Shown in pieces: positions 15,935-19,731 of a stretch of 64,000 bases of DNA (position 1 is the first letter of the stretch; each line of letters begins with the position of its first letter). Position numbers and translations under genes: made by a program. The stretch covers positions 62,001 to 126,000 of the forward strand of contig JAEEQW010000005.1 in NCBI GenBank assembly GCA_016285515.1, written 5' to 3'. The notes beneath the pieces were generated by a model that was not told the origin of the DNA, did no database searches, and was given only the letters and a program-made list of their open reading frames with translations. Source of the stretch: Bacteroidales bacterium (lineage in GTDB: Bacteria; Bacteroidota; Bacteroidia; Bacteroidales; BM520).

Positions 15935-16813
15935 ATGAAAATCAGCGACATACTAACAAACAAGAAAACTTTTTCATTTGAGGTATTTCCTCCAAATCCC
16001 AACAACAGCAAAATTGATGAAATCTTTTCAACCATAGACCAGCTTCAGCAATACCGTCCTGATTTCATAAGTGTGACTTTTAAATCAACTGGTGACTACA
16101 GCCAAAACACAATAGACCTCGCAAGCTATATCAAAAAGAATACATCGGCAGAGCCTTTAGTTCATCTTACCTGCGGTGCCTTAGACAAAAAAAACGTGGA
16201 CAGTCTGACCGAAAAACTTGAAAATGAGCACCTTGAAAACATTATGGCACTAAGAGGCGACAAACCTGACAACTATACGGATGACTTTTTGAAATACTTC
16301 AGACACGCATCCGAACTTATGGAATATATCAACAAAAAACATGATTTTTGTCTGGCAGGCGCATGTTATCCCGAAGGGCATATCGAATGTGAAAGCCTAT
16401 ATGATGACCTCGCAAACCTCAAGAAAAAGCAGGATATGGGCGCATCATTCTTCATCACACAGGCATTTTACGACAACAACTACTACTACCGTCTCGTAAG
16501 GGCGGCACACAAAATGGGAATAACCAAACCAATTATTCCCGGCATCATGCCCCTGACTAATGTGAAACTGTTCGGTAAAATAATCAATATGGCCGGCGCA
16601 TCTATTCCGTTTGAACTGAGAATACTGTTTGACAGATTCAAGGACAACAAAAAGGCGATGGAAGAAATCGGCATCGCCTACAGCGTACACCAGGTCCTTG
16701 AACTTCTTGCCAATGATGCCGACGGAATCCACATCTATACCATGAACAAAGCCTGGATAGCCGGTGAAATCTACAGACGAATCAACAATGTCATCGAAAA
16801 AGAACTGAGATAA
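15935..16813 (+). CDS. metF: methylenetetrahydrofolate reductase
   Basis: FSFEVFPP, LTCGALD, IMALRGDKP, YPEGH, FFITQAFYD motifs; ATG at 15935 lies downstream of the -7 element at 15878-15886. Confidence 0.9.
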   Translation: MKISDILTNKKTFSFEVFPPNPNNSKIDEIFSTIDQLQQYRPDFISVTFKSTGDYSQNTIDLASYIKKNTSAEPLVHLTCGALDKKNVDSLTEKLENEHLENIMALRGDKPDNYTDDFLKYFRHASELMEYINKKHDFCLAGACYPEGHIECESLYDDLANLKKKQDMGASFFITQAFYDNNYYYRLVRAAHKMGITKPIIPGIMPLTNVKLFGKIINMAGASIPFELRILFDRFKDNKKAMEEIGIAYSVHQVLELLANDADGIHIYTMNKAWIAGEIYRRINNVIEKELR

Positions 16814-16819
16814 CGACGG

Positions 16820-17422
16820 ATGAGACAGGAAATTCTGAAAAATCTTGGGTATTCTGCCGAATCAACCGCAGATTCAACAACCATTCAACTGATTGACCAG
16901 GCAATAGAAGAAATACAGTCAATTTCAGAATTCAAATACATCTATGCCTATTATGACAAGCCTTTGGGGTTCATGGTAGAAAACGAAGCCTATCTCGATT
17001 ATCTGAATAAATCAAGCGGATTCCTGCTATGTGCCACGACTTTGGGAATACAAATTGACAGATACACAAAACGTCTGCAAATCAACAATATGCAGTATGC
17101 TGTCATCTTTGATGCTGCAGCAAGCATATATCTTGTACACAAAGCCGACGAGTATGAGCGTAATCTGCCATACCGCAACATTTCGTGGCGTTTCTGTCCA
17201 GGATACTCAGGCACACCGTTGGCCGACAACATCACAATAGCACACCTGCTAAAGGCCGAAAAAATAGGGATATCATTCACGGAAACAAATCTGATGATAC
17301 CAATGAAGTCGATGATAGGAATAGTTAAAATTGGTGGCAACAGGAGAAAGAGCTGCAAAGGGTGCATAATAAACGACAACTGCAATTATCGTAAAAGAGG
17401 AACAACATGTTACAAAAATTAG
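16820..17422 (+). CDS. stand-alone B12-dependent methionine synthase activation domain protein
   Basis: SWRFCPGYSG (RxxxGY motif), MIPMKSMIGIVKI, C-terminal Cys cluster CKGCIINDNCNYRKRGTTC. Confidence 0.85.
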   Translation: MRQEILKNLGYSAESTADSTTIQLIDQAIEEIQSISEFKYIYAYYDKPLGFMVENEAYLDYLNKSSGFLLCATTLGIQIDRYTKRLQINNMQYAVIFDAAASIYLVHKADEYERNLPYRNISWRFCPGYSGTPLADNITIAHLLKAEKIGISFTETNLMIPMKSMIGIVKIGGNRRKSCKGCIINDNCNYRKRGTTCYKN

Positions 17423-19731
17423 GAAAACAGGTAATGATATTCGACGGTGCATTCGGCACTGAATTGGAGAAGCGCGGCATCATGGCCAAAATGCCTGAAA
17501 TGCTGAACATTACAAACAAGGAAGCCATCGCCGAAATACACAAGAGCTATATTGACGCCGGCTGTGATTTCATCACAACCAACACCTTCGGCGCAAACAA
17601 AATAAAAATGGGTGATGCAAACCTTAGGGAAGTGATAACAGCAGCGATAGAATTGGCAAAAAGACACCGTACCTCACAATATGTAATGATGGACATCGGT
17701 CCTCTCGGCAAAATGCTATACCCTCTCGGAGAACTGCAGTTCGATGACGCTTACGAAGCCTTCAAGGAAATGGTCACTATAGCCAGCCCGTCAGTTGACG
17801 GTTTCATACTTGAAACATTTTCAGACCTTTATGAACTGAAATGCGCCATGCTTGCCGTAAAGGAAAACTGTAACAAGCCTGTTATCACAACCATGACTTT
17901 CGATGCCAGCGGACATACCTTGACCGGCACATCGCCACGAATCATGGCGGAACTGATGTCGGCAATGGGAGCAGATGCAATCGGTGTCAACTGTTCCTTG
18001 GGGCCAAAAGACCTTAAGCCTATTGTTGAGGAATTTCTCCAATACTGCGACAAGCCCATAATCGTACAGCCGAACAGAGGTATTCCAACCCTGAAAAACG
18101 GCAAGGCAACATACAGCCTTACAGTAGATGAATATGCCACTTATATGAATGAATTCAGGGAAAAAGGAGTGGCAGTTTTAGGCGGCTGCTGCGGCACAAA
18201 CCCTAATTTCATACGTACAATAGCCGTCAACAAGGGGCTACCGGTAACACCGCGTCAAGTCAGAAAAGAAACAATAGTAACCTCAGCCACACGTTTGGTC
18301 ACACTTGACGGAATCCGCATCTGCGGTGAAAGAATCAACCCTACCGGCAAGAAAAAACTGAAAGAAGCCATCCTGAACGAAGACTTCGAATACATATACA
18401 AAGAGGCCATAAAACAAGAAGATGCCCATGCCGAAATCCTTGACGTAAACTTAGGAGTACCAAAGACTGATGAAGTCGGCAACATGAAAAAAGTTGTCAT
18501 GCATCTTAATGAAATCACAAGTCTGCCGCTGCAAATAGACTCTTCCAATGTCAAGGCCTTAGAAGCCGGATGCCGTTATTACAACGGTATTTGTCTCATC
18601 AACTCGGTGAACGGCAACAAAGACAGCATGGATACGATATTCCCGATTGTCAAGAAATACGGTGCCACTCTGTTGGGACTCACAATGGATGACAACGGAA
18701 TCCCAAAAACCGCCGAAGAACGTTTTGAAATTGCAGATCGCATTGTAAAAGCTGCCGAGGCTGACGGAATTGCGCGACACCGCATCATAATTGACACCCT
18801 CACGCTGACTTGCAGCGCACAACAGCCATTGGTTAAGGAAACAGTAAAGGCATTATCTTTAGTCACAAAACAACTACACGTAAAAACAGCATTAGGTGTT
18901 TCAAATGTCAGTTTCGGAATGCCGAACAGGGAACTCATCAACAGCACTTTTCTGACAATGGCATTACAAAACGGTTTAACCATGCCTATAATTAATCCGT
19001 GCAACTCAATGATGCTCAACACAATATTATCCTTTAAAGCTTTAACTGGGACATCAGCTGACATCGACAATTTCATAAACATGTCGGTAGTGCAGGATAT
19101 TGCCAAGCCTGCAGAATCGTCACAAATGACATTGCATGACGCCATAAAACGCGGTCTTAAGGAAGACAGCATAAACCTCACAAACGAAGCATTGAAGAGT
19201 ACCGACCCTATGGTAATAATCAATGAGACACTGATACCTGCCCTCAACGAGGTGGGAGATGAATTCGAGCATCAGCGCATATTCCTGCCGCAACTCATAG
19301 CCGCCTCGGAAGCCTGCAAAGAAGCTTTTGCCATCATCAAGTCAAGATTTCAGCAAACTGACAGTCATAAGGGCACAATAATATTGGCCACTGTCAAAGG
19401 CGATGTACACGACATCGGCAAGAATATCGTAAAAGTAATATTCGAGTCGTATGGTTATAAAGTAATCGACTTAGGCCGTGACACGGCAAAAGAGGTTATC
19501 AGAGATGCATATTTCAAATCCAATCCCGACATCATCGTCCTCAGTGCTTTGATGACAACAACTGTACTTTCCATGGAAGACACGATAGCCTACCTCAAGT
19601 CGGAAGGTGTCAAATGTCCGATTTATGTCGGCGGTGCAGTGCTAAACCAAATATTAGCAAAACAAATCAACGCCGACTGTTACACGAAAGACGCTCTCGA
19701 ATTTGTTGAATCGGTAGAAAAACGGAAATAA
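17407..19731 (+). CDS. metH: methionine synthase (B12-dependent) with Hcy, pterin and B12-binding domains, no activation domain
   Basis: FDGAFGTELEKRG, GGCCGT zinc ligands, GERINPTG, KGDVHDIGKNIV; the protein ends after the B12-binding domain. Confidence 0.93.
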   Translation: MLQKLGKQVMIFDGAFGTELEKRGIMAKMPEMLNITNKEAIAEIHKSYIDAGCDFITTNTFGANKIKMGDANLREVITAAIELAKRHRTSQYVMMDIGPLGKMLYPLGELQFDDAYEAFKEMVTIASPSVDGFILETFSDLYELKCAMLAVKENCNKPVITTMTFDASGHTLTGTSPRIMAELMSAMGADAIGVNCSLGPKDLKPIVEEFLQYCDKPIIVQPNRGIPTLKNGKATYSLTVDEYATYMNEFREKGVAVLGGCCGTNPNFIRTIAVNKGLPVTPRQVRKETIVTSATRLVTLDGIRICGERINPTGKKKLKEAILNEDFEYIYKEAIKQEDAHAEILDVNLGVPKTDEVGNMKKVVMHLNEITSLPLQIDSSNVKALEAGCRYYNGICLINSVNGNKDSMDTIFPIVKKYGATLLGLTMDDNGIPKTAEERFEIADRIVKAAEADGIARHRIIIDTLTLTCSAQQPLVKETVKALSLVTKQLHVKTALGVSNVSFGMPNRELINSTFLTMALQNGLTMPIINPCNSMMLNTILSFKALTGTSADIDNFINMSVVQDIAKPAESSQMTLHDAIKRGLKEDSINLTNEALKSTDPMVIINETLIPALNEVGDEFEHQRIFLPQLIAASEACKEAFAIIKSRFQQTDSHKGTIILATVKGDVHDIGKNIVKVIFESYGYKVIDLGRDTAKEVIRDAYFKSNPDIIVLSALMTTTVLSMEDTIAYLKSEGVKCPIYVGGAVLNQILAKQINADCYTKDALEFVESVEKRK

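Follow-up and report, generated by a model that had tools for sequence, protein, structure and literature searches.

The window analysed here, a 64,000-nucleotide stretch of DNA from a gut-type Bacteroidales bacterium, carries three forward-strand genes that form one tight operon. The first, metF (15935–16813), encodes a 5,10-methylenetetrahydrofolate reductase of 292 aa counted from its ATG and matches PF02219 with an E value of 2.6e-70; the second (16820–17422) encodes a stand-alone, AdoMet-binding MetH activation protein of 200 aa, and the third (17407–19731) a MetH of 774 aa that lacks the activation domain. Only 6 bp separate the metF stop (16813) from the activator start (16820), and the activator gene overlaps metH by 16 bp (17407–17422); the open reading frames, lengths and spacings given for 15935–19731 in a first-pass annotation, made from the sequence alone, are exact to the base. 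MetF scores 274.2 bits against TIGR00676, under the cut-off of 293.7 bits, and is the sole metF match in the genome. A gene for a DUF456 membrane protein and one for an S9-type peptidase flank the operon, both on the opposite strand. No riboswitch was found at gathering scores across the whole window, where a single tRNA was the only match.

The encoded MetH comprises four Pfam domains, for homocysteine (S-methyl_trans, residues 10–273), folate (Pterin_bind, 307–529), the B12 cap (B12-binding_2, 576–645) and B12 (B12-binding, 657–758). It does end just after the B12-binding domain, as the first-pass annotation had it: the last Pfam domain stops at residue 758 of 774, and no further one is matched by the 16 residues that remain. 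Against the full-length profile TIGR02082 the protein scores 438.9 bits over positions 3–838 of 1182, below the cut-off of 1010.85. The segments NC196, GGCC261/262 and DxHxxG (D666, H668, G671) are conserved between this MetH and that of another Bacteroidales genome, G024; we take C196, C261 and C262 to be the expected Zn residues, and H668 is presumably the lower ligand of B12. With the homocysteine, folate and both B12 domains in one protein and the activation protein encoded beside it, the locus is of the split type.

The proposal that the 200-aa protein directly upstream of metH is a separate activation protein is borne out by profile and model matches to TM0269 (1j6r), a stand-alone activator of solved structure. 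The PF02965 match of the window activator covers its C-terminal third only (E 2.9e-5), at 24.1 bits against a Pfam gathering cut-off of 25, which the 95% identical activator of the family genome G002 exceeds at 26 bits with neighbours in frame; 69 of 72 aligned homologues match the family at E ≤ 0.01. A profile built from these 72 sequences finds TM0269 with an E value of 2.2e-29; for the E. coli activation domain the value is 1.8e-5. The fold predicted by AlphaFold2 (pLDDT 92) has 1j6r as its best structural match (E 9.7e-10), and every other match at E ≤ 0.001 is a MetH structure; the activation domains of the E. coli, Thermus and human enzymes are among the matches. Alongside this predicted activation-domain fold, the protein carries the RxxxGY AdoMet-binding motif as RFCPGY (residues 124–129; 17189–17206, forward strand), of which R124, P127, G128 and Y129 are kept in at least 90% of the 72 homologues. 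Taken together, the domain, profile and model matches place the split operon well beyond chance.

Within the searches that we ran, this operon is the only methionine synthase of its genome. The genome, 98% complete, contains one MetH and one PF02965 match, and the search for a full-length metH elsewhere, which the first-pass annotation had seen as a possible carrier of the function, returned no second or full-length MetH. MetE (PF01717) had no match in the eight genomes of the family, where the positive controls worked, and a MetA-type homoserine acyltransferase (PF04204) was likewise absent from all eight. MetH can be reactivated without a PF02965 domain by proteins of the RamA/RACo type (DUF4445), as in the three-part methionine synthase of Phaeobacter with its RamA-type reactivation (PMC5764234); that family, however, is unrelated to the present activator, being distantly related to the ATP-using RamA, and its domain PF14574 gave no match in the eight family genomes although the Methanosarcina acetivorans control was positive.

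From what is known of the MetH and TM0268–TM0269 families, we infer that MetH here carries out methyl transfer and is reactivated in trans in an AdoMet-dependent manner. In such a scheme, MetF would make 5-methyl-THF and the four-domain MetH would pass its methyl group via methylcobalamin to homocysteine; once cob(I)alamin was oxidised to cob(II)alamin, the 200-aa protein would dock on the B12 domain of MetH and supply AdoMet at its RxxxGY site for reductive remethylation, with a metal or Fe-S centre in its cysteine-rich tail most likely helping to dock or feed the electron donor. That the activator instead serves some other corrinoid protein strikes us as very improbable. Distant homologues (at L004, L006 and L007) do adjoin MtxC-like corrinoid proteins, but the window activator shares its last bases with metH, activators lie directly upstream in most short-MetH operons, the activator tree mirrors the MetH tree, and the MetH search of the window's genome gave no other MetH or corrinoid-protein match.

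The tail itself, C-x2-C-x5-C-x8-C (CKGCIINDNCNYRKRGTTC; residues 179–197; 17354–17410, forward strand), was first noticed as a cysteine cluster of this one protein. The cluster is real but not peculiar to this genome, being a feature of the family: a C-x2-C-x(3-5)-C core occurs in the tail of 69 of the 72 stand-alone activators. Among 14 fused activation domains, not one shows C-x2-C within the final 60 residues of the region aligned. Cysteines 179, 182 and 188 of the core equal the AdoMet-motif residues R124, G128 and Y129 in conservation, and a fourth cysteine is present in 60 of the 69 Cys-tailed activators: in 49 it follows a C-x2-C-x5-C core, in 11 it precedes an x3–x4 core, and no protein has one on both sides. 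This degree of conservation, together with the usual presence of four cysteines, suggests that the tail may plausibly be a site for a metal or an Fe-S centre. We considered the relocation of the fourth cysteine as independent evidence for such a site and set it aside: a tree built from the activators without their tail region needs merely one or two switches, and the pattern is therefore suggestive rather than independent evidence.

A stand-alone activator does not strictly need the tail. The TM0269 chain ends two residues past its last aligned position, before the cysteines and where the tail of the window activator would start, and a single small Clostridia clade (L098, L109 and L115) has lost the tail while its stand-alone activators remain directly upstream of metH, which makes this clade a natural experiment on tail function. 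One premise of the first-pass annotation needs amending here: the activator of the “Thermotoga type” that it named, TM0269, has no such tail, and the cysteine cluster thus marks the Clostridia-type activator. In the model of the window protein, the tail is the part of lowest confidence (block pLDDT 70–74).

As to its role, the tail would most likely help to bind or feed the electron donor through a metal or Fe-S centre, a reading that we hold with less confidence than the reaction scheme taken from the protein families. We further suggest, tentatively and as a possibility that we ourselves rather doubt, that the stand-alone MetH activators of anaerobes may carry an Fe-S centre of their own in the four-Cys tail, by which electrons from ferredoxin or another donor would reach cob(II)alamin. 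Were this so, the tail would constitute a built-in electron relay absent from fused MetH. It would also go some way towards explaining why activators of the Clostridia type have remained unfused and travel with metH from phylum to phylum as a self-sufficient unit. The tail may quite possibly be a Zn knuckle with a structural role, or a docking element without redox activity, and carry no electrons. Zn sites share the C-x2-C spacing, TM0269 and the fused domains manage without such a tail, and the small Clostridia clade has dispensed with it; the confinement of the tail to stand-alone activators of largely anaerobic lineages and its conservation on a par with the AdoMet motif speak against this reading, but both are compatible with Zn too. 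We found no discussion of the Cys tail of stand-alone activators in the literature searched. If the tail does hold an Fe-S centre, electron transfer during MetH reactivation in anaerobes may involve a component that has so far gone unrecognised, and it is the tail, more than the moderate finding of the operon's transfer described below, that merits experiment.

Across the eight family genomes, the three genes occur all or none. They are together in the window's genome and in G002, all three are absent from G001, G003, G004 and G005 (G003 being only 74% complete), and the sister genus (G006 and G007) has a full-length MetH and a native-type metF instead; no methionine synthase was found in three of the five genus-mates. 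Both G001 and G004 keep the DUF456 and S9 peptidase neighbours, about 1 kb apart and without the cassette, which is therefore a local difference within the genus; matches to cassette remnants in these two genomes are at chance level. The gap between the neighbours (L164:4905-5930; L163) holds a single opposite-strand ORF of about 330 aa, whose product resembles a beta-barrel protein of the outer membrane and has no homologue that we could find in the window. In an even sampling of 393 genomes across the order, only three have a MetH of the window type (E ≤ 1e-100). The short operon is held by three families of the order, and most relatives checked have a long MetH of about 1,240 aa, within a span of some 1,100–1,290 aa.

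When genomes of bacteria and archaea were scanned, the window MetH proved 72–76% identical to those of three other Bacteroidales loci (L040–L042, at least two of them from ruminants) and about 44–51% identical to those of Bacillota and others; its identity to the long MetH of the sister genus is 33%. The window, G002, L040–L042 and G114 form one clade in the MetH, activator, metF and concatenated trees, and in all four its sister is Anaerostipes plus Erysipelotrichia, with support of 99 (SH-aLRT, starred) for MetH, 99/96 (starred) for the activator, 93/80 (not starred) for metF and 100/99 (starred) for the concatenation. The operon of G024 falls apart from this clade, inside an Oscillospiraceae/Lachnospiraceae group, and uniting the two as one Bacteroidales clade is rejected (p 0.0007 for MetH, 0.0017 for the concatenation). 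The short operon therefore entered the order at least twice, the G024 copy being, on these trees, an independent transfer.

Vertical inheritance, by which the short operon would be ancestral in Bacteroidales and would have disappeared, or given way to the long MetH, in all but a few lineages, appears unlikely. Its presence in three families is in keeping with such a history, and in an AU test of MetH alone, with very distant long MetHs as outgroup, a basal position of the window clade on the long-MetH side is not rejected (p 0.23). Difficulty in placing the root on a very long branch is the probable cause of this result. The case for a nested window clade therefore comes from branch support, from the trees of the activator and of metF, and from the concatenation. 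Against an ancestral operon stand its rarity in the order-wide draw and the concordance of all three gene trees, and the placement of G024 together with the rejected joint clade does not fit a single operon inherited from a Bacteroidales ancestor.

Since all three gene trees agree with one another and with the concatenated tree, the operon most likely moved as one unit, from a Bacillota lineage near Anaerostipes/Erysipelotrichia into an ancestor of these Bacteroidales, and it now sits in a lineage without a native long MetH or a native metF; we read the direction from the fact that the short type is widespread in Bacillota but rare in the order. Composition lends this no evidence, with a GC content of 0.40–0.44 in the operon and 0.42 in the window, and such host-like values suggest that the transfer was not recent. 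The horizontal acquisition that the first-pass annotation had entertained is thus supported by three concordant trees, by a patchy distribution and by genus-mates free of the cassette, and in the phylogenies no group of Bacteroidales emerged in which the split form is universal. The alternative offered there, that this lineage lost the long MetH, is probable as well: genomes of the sister genus retain the full-length form, and our searches of three genus-mates returned no methionine synthase. Overall, we are largely confident in the composite reading of the locus as a complete operon from methyl-folate to methionine, transferred as a unit from Bacillota to an ancestor of these Bacteroidales, standing in a lineage from which the native long MetH and metF are missing, and with a putative metal or Fe-S site in the activator tail.

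Split methionine synthases are already known, and the window operon is a new case of the Clostridia-type arrangement, in a host where this is unusual. Among its closest counterparts are the metF–activator–metH operons of Anaerostipes, Longibaculum and their like (L043, L046 and L048), which have the same gene order, a short MetH and the Cys tail but belong to another phylum, with MetHs 49–50% identical to that of the window. The Thermotoga maritima pair TM0268/TM0269 (Huang et al. 2007, as cited in PMC7857596) likewise combines a MetH without the activation domain with a separate, adjacent AdoMet-binding activation protein, predicted here to share its fold with ours; in that account, however, TM0269 is the downstream gene product, whereas the window activator lies upstream of metH. 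In Bacteroides thetaiotaomicron, BT0180 and BT0249 are reported by GapMind as a split MetH pair (PMC7311316). By that literature description, with which our comparison was made, the activation domain is a separate protein in a member of the Bacteroidales, so the premise that a separate activation domain is foreign to Bacteroides does not stand; unlike the window genes, these two seem not to be adjacent, to judge by their locus numbers. The three-gene cassette would have given methionine synthesis to Bacteroidales whose close relatives have no recognisable methionine synthase, and taxonomy is therefore no guide to B12 and methionine needs in this group.

Among 80 short-MetH loci, a biased sample in that they are the best matches to our query, the activator lies directly upstream in most, and metF precedes the activator in many. 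About 17 of the 80, many of them Synergistota, have no activator within the DNA fetched, some of the contigs being short (L045, L057, L058, L059, L075, L079, L080, L082, L084, L085, L090, L093, L100, L102, L103, L106 and L108), and their reactivator may be located elsewhere or be of another type. Two Clostridia loci (L077 and L078) have near the short metH an ORF of about 600 aa similar to homocysteine-methyltransferase and MetF. The distant activator homologues of the order Bacteroidales (L004, L006 and L007) constitute a second kind of Cys-tailed activator, with only three cysteines in the tail and with methyltransferase-like genes at some of the loci; their genomes encode a long MetH as well. 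Finally, Candidatus Harpocratesius (L076; Promethearchaeota/Asgard) has metF, a Cys-tailed activator and a short metH in the same order as the window.
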